Assembly (NCBI RefSeq): GCF_018449605.1
Contig: NZ_JAAVUW010000009.1
Coordinates: 62,001 to 126,000 of the forward strand
Length of the DNA: 64,000 bases
Direction of reading: 5' to 3'
Origin: Luteibacter sp. dw_328
GTDB lineage: Bacteria; Pseudomonadota; Gammaproteobacteria; Xanthomonadales; Rhodanobacteraceae
Shown in pieces: positions 1 through 6,654 of the stretch (position 1 is its first letter; each line of letters opens with the position of its first letter). The notes beneath the pieces were generated by a model. It saw nothing but the letters and a program-made list of their open reading frames with translations. It was not told where the DNA came from and searched no databases. Made by a program: the position numbers and the translations under genes.

Positions 1-774
1 ATGGGCATGACCCTGGGTTCCCATCTCACCCCGCTGTCGCGCAGCCACATCGAACAGGCTGACGTGATCTTTGCCGGGCTCTCCGACAACATCGTCGAGC
101 AGTGGCTCCAGCGCATGAACGCCGACGTGCGTAGCCTGCAGCCCTATTACAAGGAAGGTAAGTCGCGCCGGAAGACCTACGAGGAATGGGTCGACCTGAT
201 GATGACCGAAGTCCGCGCGGGCAAGCGCGTCTGCGGCGTCTTCTATGGCCACCCGGGCATCTTCGCCTGGTCGCCGCACAAGGTCATCGAAGTCGCCCGT
301 GCCGAAGGCTTCCAGGCTCACATGGAACCGGGCATCTCCGCCGAAGACTGCCTCTACGCCGACCTGGGTATCGACCCGGGCACCGTCGGCTGCCAGCACT
401 TCGAAGCCGGCCAGATTCTTTTCTATGAACGCCGCATCGATCCCAGCGGTTATCTCGTCCTGTGGCAGGTCGGCCTGGTCGGCGATCGTTCGCTCGCCCG
501 CTTCACCACCAGCGGCGCCTACCGCCAGGTGCTGGTCGACGTGCTGAGCAAGGACTACCCGCTGGATCACGAGATCATTCTGTACCGCGCGGTCACCCTG
601 CCGATCCAGAAGCCGCGCATCCGCCGCATCGCCCTGCGCGACCTGCCGTTTGTGGACGTGCCGACCGAAGAGACGGTGATCCTGCCGCCGGCCGCCACGC
701 TCAAGCCCAACCACGAAATCCGCGAGCGCCTGGCTGCGCTGGACAAGCTGGAAAAAGAAGCATCCGTGGCATAA
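1..774 (+). CDS. Split-borosin peptide backbone N-methyltransferase (SonM-like), 5' end cut by window
   Basis: Tetrapyrrole-methylase-fold SAM enzyme predicted to methylate backbone amides of a precursor peptide supplied in trans. From memory it matches Shewanella SonM along its length: PLSRSHIEQADVIF (11-24), YGHPGIF (82-88), MEPGISAED (108-116), ADLGIDPG (120-127), LWQ and YPLDHE, then LPIQKPRI. The residues that act in catalysis in OphMA/SonM appear as Y50, R56 and Y60 in QPYYKEGKSRRKTY. The visible ATG at base 1 aligns inside the N-terminal GxG SAM-binding motif, so the true start lies about 8 codons upstream, outside the window. The C-terminus ends after the fold with no leader or core fused to it, unlike fungal OphMA, so the substrate must be a separate peptide. 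Seven candidates follow directly. Confidence in the family is high; activity is inferred. Confidence 0.93.
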   Translation: MGMTLGSHLTPLSRSHIEQADVIFAGLSDNIVEQWLQRMNADVRSLQPYYKEGKSRRKTYEEWVDLMMTEVRAGKRVCGVFYGHPGIFAWSPHKVIEVARAEGFQAHMEPGISAEDCLYADLGIDPGTVGCQHFEAGQILFYERRIDPSGYLVLWQVGLVGDRSLARFTTSGAYRQVLVDVLSKDYPLDHEIILYRAVTLPIQKPRIRRIALRDLPFVDVPTEETVILPPAATLKPNHEIRERLAALDKLEKEASVA

Positions 775-821
775 GCCACTCATTCAACTACCACATCAAC
801 AACCGCAGGAAGGGGAAGGTC

Positions 822-1055
822 ATGCTGGACACGATTGATATGTTGGAAGCCATCGGCAGCGATGCGTCGTTGCGCTATGCGTCGACGGTGGAACTTACGA
901 CTGTGCTCGAGCAGGCCAAGGCCTCTGATGCACTGACGGCGGCCGCGATCACCGGTGATGCCTCTCATTTGGCGCAGGAATTTGGTAGCCGGAGAATGTA
1001 CGACCCTCAGGCTACGCAGAGTTTCTTCTCTGCGGATCAAACTCCGTTCTCCTGA
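822..1055 (+). CDS. Borosin precursor peptide 1
   Basis: 77 aa. The ATG follows GCAGGAAGGGGAAGG, 47 nt after the methyltransferase stop. An upstream in-frame extension of 120 residues overlaps the methyltransferase and is rejected because that frame is non-coding there and the other copies begin at this ATG. Residues 1-55 form the predicted helical leader (borosin-binding domain), which resembles SonA: ITGDASHL here against MTGDMEKL there. The core is residues 56-77, containing PQATQSFFSADQTPFS. By alignment with SonA (QSYLVIS), the hydrophobic residues after Q-S are the likeliest N-methylation sites. It is one of three nearly identical copies and the only one with the longer DQTPFS end. Confidence 0.88.
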   Translation: MLDTIDMLEAIGSDASLRYASTVELTTVLEQAKASDALTAAAITGDASHLAQEFGSRRMYDPQATQSFFSADQTPFS

Positions 1056-1075
1056 CGGACTAGCTTCGCAGGTAA

Positions 1076-1100
1076 CGACCTTGGTGTGACGCCAAGGTCG
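1076..1100 (+). promoter_or_regulatory. Hairpin between precursors 1 and 2
   Basis: A perfect 9-bp inverted repeat, CGACCTTGG and CCAAGGTCG, with a 7-nt loop. It lies 20 nt after the stop of precursor 1 and 39 nt before the start of precursor 2. No T-run follows, so it is not a classical intrinsic terminator. It could be an mRNA 3'-end stabiliser or processing site that sets precursor stoichiometry. Function is inferred from position only. Confidence 0.5.
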
Positions 1101-1139
1101 GCACTTAGCCAAATCGACAAGCGCAGGAGACCCAAGGTC

Positions 1140-1364
1140 ATGCTGGACACGATTGAAATGTTGGAAGCCATCGGCAGCGACGCCTCGTTGCGTTATGCGT
1201 CGACGGTAGAGCTCACTCACGTTCTCGAGCGCGCTCAGGCCACCGGCGCCCTGACGGCCGCCGTGGCATCCGGCGATGTTTCTCACCTGGCTCCCGAATT
1301 CGGCCATGCGAAGAATTTTGCGCCTCAGGCCACTCAGACGTTCCTTTCGTCCGACCTGGAGTGA
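1140..1364 (+). CDS. Borosin precursor peptide 2
   Basis: 74 aa. The start is the ATG at 1140, which aligns with the other copies. A GTG further upstream would add 18 unconserved residues. The leader at 1-55 is nearly identical to copies 1 and 3 for the first 26 residues. The variable core begins after APEFG and contains PQATQTFLSSDLE (62-74). APEFG replaces the usual AREFG. The ribosome binding site is GCAGGAGA about 14 nt upstream, a longer spacing than in the neighbours, so expression may differ. Confidence 0.88.
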   Translation: MLDTIEMLEAIGSDASLRYASTVELTHVLERAQATGALTAAVASGDVSHLAPEFGHAKNFAPQATQTFLSSDLE

Positions 1365-1462
1365 TTCCTCTGCTCAATAAGTAAGCAGCACGCGACCATC
1401 CAGGTTGAGCCGGATCGTCATCATCGCTTTACCGAACCCACAACCACAGGAAGGGCAAGGAC

Positions 1463-1687
1463 ATGCTGGACACGATTGAAATGCTGGAAGCCATCGGCAG
1501 CGACGCCTCGTTGCGCTATGCGTCGACGGTGGAACTTACGAATTTGCTTGACCAGGGTCAGGCAACGACGGCCCTTACGGCAGCTGTTATGTCGGGCGAT
1601 GCCTCCCACCTGGCACGGGAGTTCGGTGACATGACGAACTTCGTGCCTCAAGCCACGCAGAGCTTCGTTTCGTCGGATCTCAACTAA
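1463..1687 (+). CDS. Borosin precursor peptide 3
   Basis: 74 aa with the same layout: leader 1-55 ending AREFG, then DMTNFV and PQATQSFVSSDLN (62-74). It starts at an ATG preceded by CCACAGGAAGGGCAAGG. Its DNA in the first 25 codons is almost the same as copies 1 and 2, while the region after GD-A-S-H-L differs, as expected for precursors whose core diversifies under a fixed leader. The core differs from copy 2 at only a few hydrophobic and terminal positions, so the pair could give closely related products. Confidence 0.88.
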   Translation: MLDTIEMLEAIGSDASLRYASTVELTNLLDQGQATTALTAAVMSGDASHLAREFGDMTNFVPQATQSFVSSDLN

Positions 1688-1738
1688 GACGTCTACGCAG
1701 ACGATATTGTCTCTTTAGGCGGCCCCAAGCGGGTCACC

Positions 1739-1767
1739 CGGTCGACGAGCGAGTCCAATGTCGACCG
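1739..1767 (+). promoter_or_regulatory. Hairpin between precursors 3 and 4
   Basis: A perfect 8-bp inverted repeat, CGGTCGAC and GTCGACCG, with a 13-nt loop. It sits 30 nt before the start of precursor 4. There is no T-run. As with the hairpin after precursor 1, it may affect mRNA processing or the ratio of precursors; it could also be chance in GC-rich DNA. Confidence 0.35.
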
Positions 1768-1797
1768 TCTACGCGATAACCACAGGAAGGGAACTGT

Positions 1798-2007
1798 ATG
1801 ACGGACACACTAGATATGCTGGAAGCTATCGGAAGCGATGCCTCACTGCGTTACGCGTCCATGACAAACCTGGCGAGCGTGCTGGACAGAGCTGACGTTT
1901 CTGAAGCTCTCGCGGCAGCGGTCGCATCTGGGGACTCCTCCCACTTGGCCCGAGAATTCGGCCACAGGCAGATGTTTCTACCTCAGGTCATACAGAGCTT
2001 TTCCTAG
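1798..2007 (+). CDS. Borosin precursor peptide 4
   Basis: 69 aa. The ATG follows CCACAGGAAGGGAACTGT. The leader keeps DMLEAIGSDASLRYAS but is more diverged in the middle (MTNLASVLDRADVSEAL) than copies 1-3. The tail after AREFG is HRQMFL then PQVIQSFS, ending eight residues after the PQ motif starts. The shorter tail ends exactly where copies 1-3 carry extra residues after F-x-S, so those extra residues may be a removable follower. Confidence 0.87.
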   Translation: MTDTLDMLEAIGSDASLRYASMTNLASVLDRADVSEALAAAVASGDSSHLAREFGHRQMFLPQVIQSFS

Positions 2008-2087
2008 TTGATCCAGACCTGTCCCACCCTTCACGACGAGTTACCGCTGGCACACAGTTAGAAACGACACCCAAAAGGGGAATAAAG

Positions 2088-2294
2088 ATGGACACGATTG
2101 AAATACTGGAAGCCATTGGCAGTGATGCCGGCCTGCGCTACGCGTCGACCGAAGAACTCACGAATCTGCTTGAATCGGTGCAGGCCACCGACGCCCTCAC
2201 CGCGGCCATCGCATCTGATGATACGTCACTGTTAGCACGAGAATTCGGTAACAACACAATGTTATTGCCACAGATCGTCCAAACTTATTCCTAG
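2088..2294 (+). CDS. Borosin precursor peptide 5
   Basis: 68 aa, one residue shorter at the N-terminus (MDTIEILEAIGSDAGLRYAS). The ATG follows AAAAGGGGAATAAAG. The leader has SDDTSLLAREFG instead of SGDSSHLAREFG. The tail is NNTMLL then PQIVQTYS, ending at the same point as copy 4, with Y in place of F. The conserved leader length and fixed PQ-x-x-Q spacing support a functional precursor rather than a decaying copy. Confidence 0.87.
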   Translation: MDTIEILEAIGSDAGLRYASTEELTNLLESVQATDALTAAIASDDTSLLAREFGNNTMLLPQIVQTYS

Positions 2295-2373
2295 TCGAAG
2301 ACAATCTGGTCGTGTCGGTCTGTGAGAGGATTCACCGTCATGCGGGTTGACAACGACCACCGGTAGAGGACGA

Positions 2374-2595
2374 ATGATGGACACGATTCAGATGCTCGAA
2401 GCGATTGGCGGTGACGCCTCGCTACGTCATGCACCATCGAACGAACTCAGCACGGCCCTTCGACGAGCGAGTGCGTCCCCAGCACTGACCTCCGCCGTTG
2501 CTACTGGCGACAGCTCCCGATTACTGGCAGAGCTTGGGCATAAGCCTATGTGGGCACCTCAAGTTGGACAGTTCTTCTCCGATCTAGAGCTCTGA
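2374..2595 (+). CDS. Borosin precursor peptide 6
   Basis: 73 aa from the first of two adjacent ATGs (2374 and 2377). The first aligns with the M of MLDTI; the second has the better spacing from AGAGGA. An upstream TTG would add nine unconserved residues. The leader is the most diverged of the set (IGGDASLRHAPSNELSTALRRAS) and has ELG instead of EFG. The tail is HKPMWA then PQVGQFFSDLEL, the only tail with tryptophan before the PQ motif. Confidence 0.85.
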   Translation: MMDTIQMLEAIGGDASLRHAPSNELSTALRRASASPALTSAVATGDSSRLLAELGHKPMWAPQVGQFFSDLEL

Positions 2596-2778
2596 GGAAG
2601 TCCACCGGACGCCAAGCGTGCCATCGCGACCTGGAACACAGTCCACCGGGAGCAGCATACCGCTCCAAGTGGACTGCGAAGAATCTGAGGAGTGGCAGGA
2701 TGCCTCGACAGGACGCCTCAAGAAACGGCGGCAGCTGCCGTTACCATGCCTTATACAATCACGCAAACAGGGGACTAC

Positions 2779-3081
2779 ATGTCAGACACCATTGAACTGC
2801 TTGAGGCCATTGGCCGCGATGCATCTCTACGACACGCCTCGTCGGAGCAGTTGGCAAACGCTCTCCATCATTCGCAGGCCTCCGACGCCCTGACGGCTGC
2901 GGCAGCCTCAGGGGACAGCTCACTCCTCGCAAGAGAGTTCGGTCAGAGCCCCAACTATCTGCCTCAGGCCATTCAGACCCCGGGCCATGAGGAAGACGAG
3001 ACCGATCAAGACGACGACAAGTCAGACGTCCCCTCGACGCCCGATGACGGGAAATCGCCGACCGAAAAGCCGAACAAGTAA
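2779..3081 (+). CDS. Borosin precursor peptide 7 with long acidic tail
   Basis: 100 aa from the ATG at 2779, which follows ACAGGGGACTAC. The leader is typical (MSDTIELLEAIGRDASLRHAS ... AREFG), then QSPNYL and PQAIQ at 62-66. After this it departs from the family: residues 67-100 are a hydrophilic, Asp/Glu/Pro-rich tail in place of the short hydrophobic end. It may be a precursor with a long follower, a decoy or regulatory copy, or a product of 3' replacement. It is separated from copy 6 by 183 nt, in which I see no further precursor, and its stop is 2 nt from the next gene, so translation is probably coupled to the GGDEF protein. Confidence 0.82.
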   Translation: MSDTIELLEAIGRDASLRHASSEQLANALHHSQASDALTAAAASGDSSLLAREFGQSPNYLPQAIQTPGHEEDETDQDDDKSDVPSTPDDGKSPTEKPNK

Positions 3082-3083
3082 AG

Positions 3084-4856
3084 ATGGCCTGGCTGCCAAG
3101 CCGCCTCGTGTCACGGGCTGTAGGAACGGCCCTGACACTTTGCGTGCTTGTGCAGCCCTCTATCGCTGCAGATTTGGGCGATCATGCTGCGTTTCTCGAC
3201 GTGACCGAAAGGCTACGCGCGAAGGACCACCCGCAGTTTGTTGAGCGACTTTCACAGATTCGACAGGACGCCGCCAACCTTACCAATACCGAGAAATGGC
3301 ATTTGCGTTATCTCGAAGCGTGGGAAGCGATGTTTGAGGGCGGTTACGCAAAATCAGAAGAGCAGCTTAACGAAGTCATCAAACGCTCTGGCGATCCCGT
3401 CCTCGCGACAAAAGCGTCGGCCCTCCTCTTAAGCAACCTGGCATTCAATCGACGCTACGAAGAAGCGTTCGCATTGGCCAATCGGCTGGCAACCACTTTG
3501 CCTTCGGTGACGGATCCGTTAGCCCGATCGATGCTTCTGACGAATCTCTCGCAGATGATGAATTTTGCGGGCCAGACCGATCTCGCTCTCAAATATGCGG
3601 ACATGATCGAAAGCGATTCCCCAACAGGCGAGGCGGCGTGCCAAGCCGTTTGGCTTAAAGCCGCGACCCTCTACAGCGGAAGTCGCCTGAAGTCATCCAG
3701 CCCTGAGCTCACGCGAGCCGTGGATACGTGCGTCGCTGCGCGGGAAACAGTGATCACGAACAGTGCGCTCCTCCTAATGGGAAGCTTATTCCTAAAGGAA
3801 AGCCAACCACTGAAGGCAATGTCGCTTTTGGATCGAATCGATCCAAGCATACGTATTAACCATTATTTTCCTCACGTGGAATTGGCGCACCTGGAACGCG
3901 CTCAGGCCTATGCCCAACTTGGAAACGATGTCGAAGCAAAGAAGGCTGCGCTATCCGTCGTAGCGATGAATAAGCCAGACGACATAAGCGATTGGCTAAA
4001 GGATGCTTACGAAGTTCTTTACCGTGCTGAGAAGCGCCAAGGCAACGCGCTAGCCGCTCTTTTGAGCTATGAACACTTTGTGGCGCAGGACAAGGGCTAT
4101 CTCAACGACATTAGTGTCAGGAGCCTCGCCTACGAAGTGACCCAGCAGCACGAGATGGTGGAGAATCTCGCAACGGAGAGCCTAAGCAAGCAGAACAGAA
4201 TTCTTCGCTTGCAGCAGGCGCTCGACGCCGGCGCAGTCGCAACGAGCCGACTCTATATCGCGCTTCTTACGGTGGTCCTTGCATCTATCGGCCTGTTGCT
4301 TTTCCGCGTAAAACGCTCGCAACTCCGCTTCAAACGAATGTCCTCCCTGGACGGCCTAACCGGCATCCTCAACCACCAGCATTTCATGAGCGAGGCCGAA
4401 CGCGTTCTTCGCATCCAGGAGAAGAAACTCGGCAGCGCCTGCCTGATCTCCATCGACCTCGATCACTTCAAGCAAGTCAACGACACACATGGCCACGCCA
4501 TGGGCGACGTCGTGCTCAAGCGCACTGTAGCGATCCTCAAGCAATTCCTGCGCCCGATCGACCTGTTCGGTCGCCTCGGTGGCGAAGAGTTCGCCATTCT
4601 CCTCGTCGGCTGTTCAAGCAGCCAGGCAGTGGCGACAGCCGACCGTCTGCGCGTCGCCATCGAAGCGACACCGGTCGAAGACGACGGGCGCATCGTGTCG
4701 CTGTCGGCCAGCGTAGGCGTCGCCTCGACGGATCGATGCGGTTACGAACTACAGCGCCTCTGTCGTGAAGCCGATGCCGCGCTCTACCGTGCGAAACGCG
4801 CCGGCCGTAATCGCGTCATCGCCGACTCCGAGAACGACACCGCTACGGCGGCCTGA
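3084..4856 (+). CDS. Membrane diguanylate cyclase with periplasmic helical-repeat sensor domain
   Basis: 590 aa. An N-terminal hydrophobic stretch (about 10-28) acts as signal peptide or anchor. A helical, TPR-like region covers about 30-385, followed by a membrane segment at about 389-409 (LYIALLTVVLASIGLLLF) and a cytoplasmic GGDEF domain. The active-site loop is GGEEF near residue 498, and RPID lies five residues before it, the position of the inhibitory I-site, so the cyclase is probably active and product-inhibited. It would make c-di-GMP in response to an unknown periplasmic signal. It starts 2 nt after precursor 7, so it appears to be the last gene of the borosin operon. Its 5' two-thirds look lower in GC than its 3' end: hand-counted 60-nt lines at 3421 and 3841 give 53% and 47%, against 60% at 4561. 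Confidence 0.9.
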   Translation: MAWLPSRLVSRAVGTALTLCVLVQPSIAADLGDHAAFLDVTERLRAKDHPQFVERLSQIRQDAANLTNTEKWHLRYLEAWEAMFEGGYAKSEEQLNEVIKRSGDPVLATKASALLLSNLAFNRRYEEAFALANRLATTLPSVTDPLARSMLLTNLSQMMNFAGQTDLALKYADMIESDSPTGEAACQAVWLKAATLYSGSRLKSSSPELTRAVDTCVAARETVITNSALLLMGSLFLKESQPLKAMSLLDRIDPSIRINHYFPHVELAHLERAQAYAQLGNDVEAKKAALSVVAMNKPDDISDWLKDAYEVLYRAEKRQGNALAALLSYEHFVAQDKGYLNDISVRSLAYEVTQQHEMVENLATESLSKQNRILRLQQALDAGAVATSRLYIALLTVVLASIGLLLFRVKRSQLRFKRMSSLDGLTGILNHQHFMSEAERVLRIQEKKLGSACLISIDLDHFKQVNDTHGHAMGDVVLKRTVAILKQFLRPIDLFGRLGGEEFAILLVGCSSSQAVATADRLRVAIEATPVEDDGRIVSLSASVGVASTDRCGYELQRLCREADAALYRAKRAGRNRVIADSENDTATAA

Positions 4857-4862
4857 GTCGCG

Positions 4863-6548
4863 CTAGAGCTTGCTGTGCTCCACCTGGCGCTCGCGTTGCA
4901 TCAAGGTCCACTCCGCATGTTCCGTCAACGCCGCATCGCCCAGCGACAGCAGGATCGCACGCTGTTGCGCGGGGTCCTGGGTGCGGTCGAGTGCGGCCCG
5001 CGCGCTGGCGAAGATGCGTTGCATGAAGCGGTACTGACGAATCAGCTCGCGGTCGGCTTTGCGATAGGAATAGGCCTCGCGCACGGCGGCGATGATCGAC
5101 AGCACGGCCATGATGGTGACCAGGACCACCTTGGCTTCCTCGCCCAGTTTCAGGGCGAAGGCGGCGAGGAATACGCTGATGGTAATGCCGCCCCACAGAC
5201 TCACGCGCCCGATGGTTTCCGTCATGTGGTGCACACCACTGCGTTCGGCACTCTTGCGCTCGTAGTAGTAGAGCTGCCCCGATGTTCCGGATTCGCCCAC
5301 CCATTCGGCGATGACAGCGGCGAGATCCTCGTTGGTCGGGACATCCGGATGGGTCGACGGGTGGAGGCTGGCGGCGCGCATCACATTGCGTATCCAGCCG
5401 AGCTCGATGTTCTGCTTCTGCAGGAAGTTGTCGTGCGCGAACTCGTGGTCCGCACTCGCGACGATGCCCGCACGGCGCCAGCAGGACTGGATACGCAGGC
5501 CTTCCGCCAGCGCGCGATAGTCGAGGTACTTTCGATGCCAGCCGTGGCGATGCGCGAGGATGGCGACAGCGCCGCCCGTGGCAAACATGACGAGGAACAG
5601 GTAGATCAGGAAGTTGTTTCCCGGCAGGTGCGCGTAGAAGGTAAAGGCGATACCCATGAGACCGGCCAGCGTATAGGTGAGGCGCATGGCCATGATGACG
5701 CGACGGCGGAAGTGCACCGCCAGCCAGTCGGCGGCGTGAAACAGCTGGTCGATCTCGGCCGTCGAGCCAGTGGGTGCGCCTGCCATCTCGCGCGGTGCAT
5801 CATCGATCGCCGCTGCGTGACGGGCGCACTCGTCGTTGAATTCCGCCATGCGCGAGAACATCAGCCGGAAGTCGTCCGGCAGCTTTGTCTGGAACGCCAT
5901 GTTCTCTGCGCTGCGCCAGCCTGCCTGCAGCGGTTGGAGGCCCGACGCCGGTCCCTCGTCGTCGCGCGAGCAGACGATGTGATACAGCAGGCTTTCGTCG
6001 CTTCCCGTGAGCACGTGACGCGAATGCGCGTGTCGCAGCACCAGGCCCGGCGGTGTGCCGGTGAGGTGGTAATGCACGATCTGTGCGGTGCCACCGAGCC
6101 CGGCGGCTCCGTTGCCGTCCCAGATGGTGAGCAGCACGTGGCAGTGACTGGCGATGTAGACCCCCGCCTTGGCGTACTGACGGTCGCGCGCGGCGCCGCG
6201 GGATCCGATCACGTGATGAGGCTGTGCCATCAGACGGGGAAGGAGCACCACCTCGGCATGGCTACACAGGACGTCGAAGTTGGCGCGGACAGCCGGCGTC
6301 GAGAAGTCGTCGACGTAGAGCGCAGGAGGTAGAGGCAGCGGGGCAATCAAGCGTGCGCCGCAAGACAGGGCCTCCTCGGCGATCAACTGGTCACCTCCCT
6401 CGGCCAGCGCCGAAAGCACCACCAGCGGCAGTTCGGGAAATTCCTCGCGTACCTGGGTAAAGAAGGCACGCACGCGCTGCCGGATCGGCTCGAGTTCGTC
6501 GGCGGGGATGTCGCGGTGGCCCGTAACGCCGATGACCAGTGGGGTCAT
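4863..6548 (-). CDS. SLOG-like nucleotide-binding protein with SLATT-type membrane segments
   Basis: 561 aa from the ATG at 6548. An upstream ATG at 6650 would add 34 low-complexity residues and neither start has a clear ribosome site. The N-terminus is a Rossmann-like SLOG/DprA-type fold (VIGVTGHRD; LSALAEGGDQLIAEEAL). Two hydrophobic hairpins follow, one in the middle (from LTYTLAGLMGIAFTFY to LVMFATGGAVAILA) and one near the C-terminus (from WGGITISVFLAAFAL to VVLVTIMAVLSIIAA), each followed by a Y-R-rich helix, as in SLATT domains. SLOG proteins are thought to sense or process nucleotides, and SLATT domains to be membrane effectors in conflict systems; both are family-level predictions. 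It shares a transcript with the 49-aa gene and the TIR gene upstream, and ends 6 nt from the convergent GGDEF gene. Confidence 0.72.
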   Translation of the reverse strand: MTPLVIGVTGHRDIPADELEPIRQRVRAFFTQVREEFPELPLVVLSALAEGGDQLIAEEALSCGARLIAPLPLPPALYVDDFSTPAVRANFDVLCSHAEVVLLPRLMAQPHHVIGSRGAARDRQYAKAGVYIASHCHVLLTIWDGNGAAGLGGTAQIVHYHLTGTPPGLVLRHAHSRHVLTGSDESLLYHIVCSRDDEGPASGLQPLQAGWRSAENMAFQTKLPDDFRLMFSRMAEFNDECARHAAAIDDAPREMAGAPTGSTAEIDQLFHAADWLAVHFRRRVIMAMRLTYTLAGLMGIAFTFYAHLPGNNFLIYLFLVMFATGGAVAILAHRHGWHRKYLDYRALAEGLRIQSCWRRAGIVASADHEFAHDNFLQKQNIELGWIRNVMRAASLHPSTHPDVPTNEDLAAVIAEWVGESGTSGQLYYYERKSAERSGVHHMTETIGRVSLWGGITISVFLAAFALKLGEEAKVVLVTIMAVLSIIAAVREAYSYRKADRELIRQYRFMQRIFASARAALDRTQDPAQQRAILLSLGDAALTEHAEWTLMQRERQVEHSKL

Positions 6549-6654
6549 GGCGGATTTTGCGTGTACATGCTCCCCAGGCGGCGACCGTCGCCGGTCACCA
6601 CCGAAGGAACCGATCGGGTCCCTGCCGCCTGGATCGGTGTGCTGTCGCATGGGC

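Follow-up and report, generated by a model that had tools for sequence, protein, structure and literature searches.

What would a bacterium gain from seven peptide precursor genes behind a single peptide-modifying enzyme, and why should such a series run directly into a gene for a sensor that makes cyclic di-GMP (c-di-GMP)? The question is raised by the 64,000-nucleotide (nt) stretch of Luteibacter sp. dw_328 analyzed here (contig NZ_JAAVUW010000009.1, positions 62,001 to 126,000 of the forward strand; hereafter, the window), which begins with a gene for a borosin-type backbone N-methyltransferase, followed by the seven precursor genes and a gene for a protein with a GGDEF domain. To our knowledge, the role that bacterial split borosins, in which enzyme and precursor are encoded separately, play for their producers is little understood, and the neighborhood of this locus suggests a function that can be tested. 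We propose that the genes form a split borosin operon and that its N-methylated peptides probably act together with the c-di-GMP-making sensor. The two parts of this proposal differ in strength: that enzyme and precursors belong to a borosin system is close to certain, and that the peptides are ligands for the cyclase is a tentative idea, slightly more easily wrong than right. The genes concerned are the following.

1 to 774, plus strand: split-borosin alpha-N-methyltransferase of the TP_methylase superfamily; the first 21 codons of the gene precede the window.
822 to 1055, plus strand: precursor 1, 77 amino acids (aa), ending ...SRRMYDPQATQSFFSADQTPFS; gap-free paralogue, also matched by the leader hidden Markov model (HMM), whose seed includes this gene.
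1140 to 1364, plus strand: precursor 2, 74 aa, ending ...HAKNFAPQATQTFLSSDLE; family alignment, leader HMM, AlphaFold2 model.
1463 to 1687, plus strand: precursor 3, 74 aa, ending ...DMTNFVPQATQSFVSSDLN; family alignment, leader HMM.
1798 to 2007, plus strand: precursor 4, 69 aa, ending ...HRQMFLPQVIQSFS; family alignment, leader HMM.
2088 to 2294, plus strand: precursor 5, 68 aa, ending ...NNTMLLPQIVQTYS; family alignment, leader HMM.
2377 to 2595, plus strand: precursor 6, 72 aa (73 if the ATG at 2374 is used), ending ...HKPMWAPQVGQFFSDLEL; alignment, leader HMM, tree.
2779 to 3081, plus strand: precursor 7, 100 aa, ...QSPNYLPQAIQTPGHEEDE followed by a long acidic tail; leader HMM, tree.
3084 to 4856, plus strand: protein of 590 aa with signal-like, TPR-like, transmembrane and GGDEF parts; PF00990, motif, hydropathy.

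The open reading frame (ORF) at 1 to 774 is the 3′ part of a gene cut by the window edge, with a likely start at an ATG 63 nt upstream (L004:4938) that gives a protein of 278 aa. It matches SonM, the methyltransferase of the Shewanella oneidensis split borosin (PDB 8t1s/7ltc), at an E value of 1.6e-71, with 115 of 243 aligned residues identical, and the fungal dbOphMA, MroMA and OphMA chains at 3e-46 to 7e-43; its match to PF00590 has an E value of 1e-16. All four SonM residues mutated in PMC8429565, namely, Y58, R67, Y71 and Y93, are kept. The enzyme is separately encoded, the ORF stopping ahead of the first precursor. An ordinary corrin/porphyrin methylase was considered and rejected, Pfam giving the superfamily only and NCBIfam matches falling far under their cutoff against the strong match to SonM, and so was a phage origin, since the three proteins tested against PHROGs (the enzyme and two of the seven precursors) had no match at E 0.01.

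The seven small genes lie on the strand of the methyltransferase gene at spacings of 47 to 183 nt, each preceded, by eye, by a purine-rich stretch resembling a Shine-Dalgarno sequence. Their products align without gaps up to residue 67, that is, beyond the 61-residue gap-free leader described in a first-pass annotation of this DNA, whose reading of seven tandem precursors beside a strongly SonM-like enzyme is borne out. Residues 3 to 21 are almost constant, P62, Q63 and Q66 are invariant in all seven (PQATQ of precursor 1 corresponds to codons 1005 to 1019), and residues 56 to 61, 64, 65 and 67 onward vary. Precursors 1 to 6 stop soon past this PQxxQ core, and the long acidic tail of precursor 7 resembles that of many single-precursor relatives. 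Median pairwise nonsynonymous divergence (dN, NG86 method) is 0.10 against a synonymous divergence (dS) of 1.2 for residues 3 to 21 and 0.49 against 1.1 for residues 57 to 67, with dS usable in 13 and 12 of the 21 pairs, respectively. The sets behind these comparisons (window7 and, for the sister array described below, L059) exclude the misregistered sequence o2, which adds about 0.29 of spurious entropy to otherwise invariant columns. Since dN lies under dS in both regions, selection appears to maintain the genes, with a looser hold on the core than on the leader, and gap-free leader conservation together with these ratios excludes chance ORFs. Searching the whole genome with a profile gives 13 precursors, in groups of 7, 3 and 3, beyond which the best match (E 0.58) is noise.

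Is the shared leader a borosin-binding domain (BBD)? The leader of SonA, the precursor partner of SonM, is a five-helix bundle of residues 1 to 53 (PMC8429565), and the AlphaFold2 model of precursor 2 has five helices (residues 2 to 13, 15 to 19, 22 to 31, 36 to 44 and 47 to 54; mean predicted local distance difference test [pLDDT] score, 77). A Foldseek search with this model returned four PDB matches, all of them SonA chains, with poor E values of 3 to 8. A profile of 73 leaders without any SonA-like member gave 20 PDB matches (E up to 10), of which the top seven are SonA constructs at E values of 0.003 to 0.007, six of them spanning profile position 1 to 60-62; with three divergent rows added (one of them a SonA-like precursor encoded at another gammaproteobacterial locus), SonA was matched at 2e-6. 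On the other side, neither a profile of 17 window-type sequences nor a PDB search with a single precursor reached SonA, and we therefore regard the relation as remote. Kinship of the leader with SonA, as proposed in the first-pass annotation, is thus backed as a remote homology by the kind of profile search suggested there, and its supposed likeness in a "Q-S-aromatic" core does not stand, being out of register in the gap-free alignment: SonA reaches its ...Y-Q-S at residue 61, so that Q-S corresponds to window residues 60 and 61, whereas the Q-(S/T)-(F/Y) of the window lies at residues 66 to 68.

A structural view of the putative complex comes from the orthologous locus of a sister species (L059), whose enzyme and first precursor were modeled as one chain, with the stop codon read as a residue. 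The joined model has a mean pLDDT of 91 and a predicted template modeling score (pTM) of 0.84, from an output that carries no inter-domain error; chain residues 301 to 350, which belong to the precursor, score 89 to 93, and the core-bearing end scores 45 to 63. Among the matches listed, TMt is 0.94 for SonM, TMq is 0.76 to 0.80 over 359 to 400 columns for the OphMA and dbOphMA chains, and MroMA scores 0.67 to 0.77 over 314 to 368 columns. Since the 255 enzyme residues of the 362 could by themselves yield only about 0.70 of the score, the precursor domain in this model (root mean square deviation, about 6 Å) probably sits roughly where the fused clasp of OphMA does. The prediction of enzyme with precursor that the first-pass annotation had suggested for every precursor gave a model that matches SonM and OphMA chains for the one pair that it covered, the first precursor of the sister locus. 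SonA is methylated at L63 and I65 (PMC8429565), and if the gap-free alignment is carried on for a few more residues, these fall at window residues 63 and 65, inside PQxxQ. Taken together, homology, catalytic residues and predicted fold make the reading of positions 1 to 3081 as a split borosin locus, with a SonM-like enzyme and adjacent precursors, well supported at the level of sequence.

What the first-pass annotation, which stopped at position 3081, overlooked is the gene that begins 2 nt past precursor 7. Its product has a signal-like segment at residues 13 to 31, a TPR-like sensor region, a transmembrane segment at about residues 388 to 410 (by hydropathy) and then a GGDEF domain (PF00990, E 5e-41) with an intact GGEEF motif and RPID at the RxxD site. 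The layout recurs in the family: among the 119 GGDEF-family ORFs that are 450 aa or longer, the GGEEF motif is present in 117, a hydrophobic segment precedes the domain in 117 and an N-terminal hydrophobic segment is found in 112. TPR matches exceed the Pfam cutoff in the homologs at L030 (TPR_2) and L106 (TPR_12), and the homolog at L025 has no TPR match.

How regularly such a cyclase accompanies borosin genes can be counted across 107 distinct methyltransferase loci (116 places less nine duplicates), drawn from the genus genomes, named relatives, 40 further family stretches and eight class-sample loci; L020, a near copy of L019, was kept, and at L082 a single cyclase was counted for two enzymes. 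In 92 of the 107, a GGDEF homolog on the same strand follows downstream within 6 kb; among the 102 loci for which 2.5 kb or more of downstream sequence is available, 88 have one. In 88 of the 92, its frame opens no more than 300 nt from the precursor or enzyme gene before it. Where it directly follows a precursor (84 frames), an ATG is found 0 to 20 nt past the precursor stop in 59 cases and at −10 to +30 in 65 (median, 11), with only GTG or TTG in that interval in 14 and neither in 5. The flanking contexts of these GGDEF-bearing loci vary. A neighbor analysis without a preselected family recovered the GGDEF family in 56 of 64 loci, which equals the recovery of the methyltransferase family itself by the same ORF filter. 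Because GGDEF matches in this genome number just 28, with a single frame contributing two of them as separate pieces, the probability of chance adjacency per locus is small. The linkage extends past the order, to an Alteromonas locus (L030), and to L106 from another family.

Taking the sensor region alone as the query gave 66 homologs in 23 genomes of the genus. A methyltransferase stands beside 41 of these, including 31 of the 33 with E < 1e-60, and conversely 36 of 41 methyltransferases have a sensor nearby. Twenty of the 25 sensor homologs without a nearby methyltransferase were inspected as 7-kb stretches (L152 to L171), with a whole-genome leader search covering the remainder, and 14 of these 20 TPR-GGDEF genes have an orphan borosin-type precursor ahead of them and no methyltransferase anywhere in the stretch. 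The leader search of the 23 genomes found 80 precursors in 52 groups, of which 35 have enzyme and cyclase, 14 the cyclase only and 3 the enzyme only; all 14 groups without a nearby methyltransferase lie 142 to 236 nt from a sensor match. In this genus, the sensor is thus a more constant neighbor of the precursors (49 of 52 groups) than the enzyme that would modify them (38 of 52). Since each of the 23 genomes carries at least one methyltransferase, the orphan precursors could be modified in trans, and because peptide-sensor pairing recurs so often, sometimes without a nearby enzyme, the peptides may be signals for the sensor.

Sequence divergence points the same way. Over the 79 loci that combine a single enzyme with a precursor and a long sensor ORF (L020, loci with several methyltransferases and incomplete loci being left out), leader distances correlate with those of the enzyme (0.85) and of the sensor (0.84), and the association persists in partial correlations with the leader (enzyme, 0.40; sensor given methyltransferase, 0.37; p 0.001, 999 permutations). 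Such codivergence is as expected if the precursor fits both enzyme and sensor, with shared descent contributing.

Several observations weigh against a partnership of peptide and sensor. Linkage and codivergence may owe part of their strength to the inheritance of one operon as a unit. No cyclase lies downstream in 15 of the 107 loci (L078 is scored so even though its cyclase sits between precursor and enzyme), and six of the seven class-sample loci from other families (L105 to L111) lack a GGDEF gene, L106 being the exception. A second borosin locus of this very genome, C11, has a methyltransferase and three precursors but no GGDEF gene, and 11 of the 66 sensor homologs have neither precursor nor methyltransferase nearby. 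In the sensor itself, the TPR_14 match of the window protein (E 0.0011) is under the Pfam cutoff, and the RxxD site, kept in 81 of the 119 family ORFs, is not universal. Finally, the route of the peptide to the sensor is a difficulty for this reading: the sensor part is predicted to be periplasmic, yet the precursors have, by eye, no signal-like N terminus, and between enzyme and cyclase we noticed neither a transporter nor a protease gene, a genome-wide search not having been made.

With these points on the table, we still consider a joint action of peptides and sensor the best account and would picture it as follows. The genes would be co-transcribed as a type IV-like split borosin operon, and the SonM-like enzyme would dock the five-helix BBD of each precursor and N-methylate backbone amides at or beside PQxxQ, with residues 63 and 65 taking the place of L63 and I65 of SonA. 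A protease would then free the core peptide, and the processed, N-methylated product would get to the periplasmic sensor part of the TPR-transmembrane-GGDEF protein, a passage in which backbone N-methylation may be of use, since it can help membrane permeability (PMC8429565). Binding to the sensor would set the activity of the diguanylate cyclase and hence the c-di-GMP output. A precedent for control of this kind is RcbAB of Vibrio vulnificus, where a GGDEF cyclase is kept in check by a TPR domain and set free by a partner from its operon (PMC12282931).

How much of this is new? The window resembles SonM/SonA, a type IV system (PMC8429565), in its discrete TP_methylase-type enzyme with the same Y/R/Y/Y set and in a separate precursor with a five-helix N-terminal domain, a C-terminal core and a leader that aligns without gaps; it differs in its seven precursors, where SonM/SonA has one, in carrying PQxxQ at the aligned core position and in the TPR-GGDEF gene directly behind, and the words "cyclase" and "operon" do not occur in the main text of that paper. 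A GGDEF-sequence-containing domain is listed among borosin architectures in the Figure 1 legend of PMC11395268, so GGDEF has been named with borosins before; the accessible part of that paper makes no mention of arrays or of enzyme-less pairs of precursor and cyclase. RcbAB shares with the window a TPR region ahead of a GGDEF cyclase whose output is set by a protein of the same operon, but there the partner is a TPR protein, and neither a precursor of a ribosomally synthesized and post-translationally modified peptide (RiPP) nor a methyltransferase appears in the accessible part of PMC12282931. Our literature search, which did not extend to the main genome-mining papers, found no paper joining borosins with c-di-GMP or with Luteibacter. 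A link between GGDEF and borosins is therefore not wholly new, and split borosins are already known, whereas the size of the array, its graded states (2, 7 and 12 precursors) in close relatives and the enzyme-less pairs of precursor and cyclase look new. If the proposal is true, it would join RiPP chemistry to c-di-GMP signaling, and one peptide N-methyltransferase would have natural substrate collections of seven and up to twelve members.

There remains the array. Downstream precursors were detected singly in 82 of the 107 loci, with none in 16, two in 6 and three in 1; only the window, with 7, and the sister-species locus, with 12, exceed three, in agreement with the initial impression that seven precursors beside one methyltransferase are unusual. 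Divergent precursors escape these counts: an acidic-ended small ORF lies between enzyme and cyclase in 5 of the 16 zero-count loci (L022, L025 and L028 to L030). The sister locus is orthologous to the window, its enzyme being 95% identical and the flanking families common to both. Eleven of its 12 precursors are open, near-identical copies are present and two cores are encoded twice each. A 313-bp unit is repeated there in tandem (3.5 copies, 90% matches), which indicates recent growth by tandem duplication; Tandem Repeats Finder detected no repeat in the window array, which we therefore take as the older of the two. The tenth gene of the sister array (L059:3342-3563, minus strand) is a 5′-truncated remnant that has lost the N-terminal part of the leader, a sign of gene turnover in the array. 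In Luteibacter sp. OK325, the orthologous locus, with an enzyme 92% identical, has two precursors. A tree of the paralogues, computed without the truncated gene and used only for the grouping of the window's sixth gene and for recent duplicates of the sister locus, most other inner nodes being weakly supported, groups precursor 6 with the first genes of both sister loci (w6 with o1, 93; with x01, 99). The last precursor carries the long tail in all three loci, and short and long-tailed kinds persist in each.

This history bears on the strongest of the alternatives, in which the copies only boost the output of one ancestral peptide and their variation is drift under weak constraint. The tandem unit, near-identical copies and truncated remnant of the sister array, as well as the bare two copies of the third relative, are what such a dosage array would leave behind. 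The window copies, however, are too diverged for repeat detection, yet all seven are open under a strongly constrained leader, and the two tail kinds are retained in all three loci, so we hold dosage by itself to be rather unlikely.

A second alternative, less likely still, is that a promiscuous methyltransferase makes a combinatorial library of seven secreted bioactive peptides, with the cyclase merely a co-operonic regulator. The first-pass annotation inferred a library of N-methylated peptides from one enzyme, and the part of the claim that holds is that seven genes encode seven different cores, varying at the positions given above; split-borosin enzymes, with SahM as the case, are described as tolerating core changes (PMC11285071). 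The constraint on the core does not fit: P62, Q63 and Q66 are fixed, core dN is about 0.44 of dS (ratio of medians), and the sister array repeats two cores exactly. Nor does the setting, since the genus precursor groups keep a cyclase nearby more often than an enzyme, and no export or immunity gene was noticed, though none was searched for. The prochlorosins, lanthipeptides made by ProcM, are the familiar case of one modifying enzyme serving several precursors with a conserved leader and hypervariable cores. The window likewise has one enzyme with many intact, leader-sharing precursors (7/7 open), but its core is not hypervariable, three positions being invariant, and a cyclase gene follows directly. 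With those positions fixed and dN staying under dS, the data agree less well with an open library than with an array for dosage or for narrow variants.

The weakest alternative, in which unmodified precursors are themselves protein partners of the cyclase, the BBD signaling and the methyltransferase being a secondary regulator, draws on the 14 of 52 genus groups with a cyclase and no methyltransferase within the searched distance but is improbable, given that modification in trans is possible in all 23 genomes and that the sensor is predicted, from hydropathy only, to lie across the membrane from a cytosolic BBD.

Returning to a peptide-sensor partnership, we suggest that duplication at an ancestral locus of one or two precursors gave rise to the array, that purifying selection retains it, and that it would raise the dose while supplying a few close variants. 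A wider version, which we offer with more reserve than the ligand idea for this locus, is that N-methylated borosin peptides are ligands of a periplasmic TPR-GGDEF family, precursor-cyclase cassettes, some lacking a methyltransferase of their own, being scattered through the genome and served in trans by one enzyme, and the arrays of seven and twelve genes tuning or diversifying the signal at one receptor.

Some smaller observations concern the surroundings and relatives of the locus. Adjoining the cyclase gene, on the minus strand of the window (4863 to 6650), is an ORF of 595 aa without a Pfam match at E 0.001. A third borosin locus of this genome (L006:4954-7002, minus strand) has three divergent precursors, and in one of them the tail repeats ALMxPxS-like units. 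Two methyltransferase genes, each with its own precursor after it, occur at L082, L009 and L120. The L020 contig, labeled Candidatus Eremiobacteraeota, encodes a precursor identical to that of the Rhodanobacter locus L019 and is perhaps misbinned. A gene for a TonB-dependent receptor (L005:7135-10323; PF00593, PF07715) lies downstream of the C11-type borosin locus, and the same receptor family is found at L074 and at L078, where the order is precursor, cyclase, enzyme, receptor; at C11-type loci, this receptor is a possible partner for peptide uptake.

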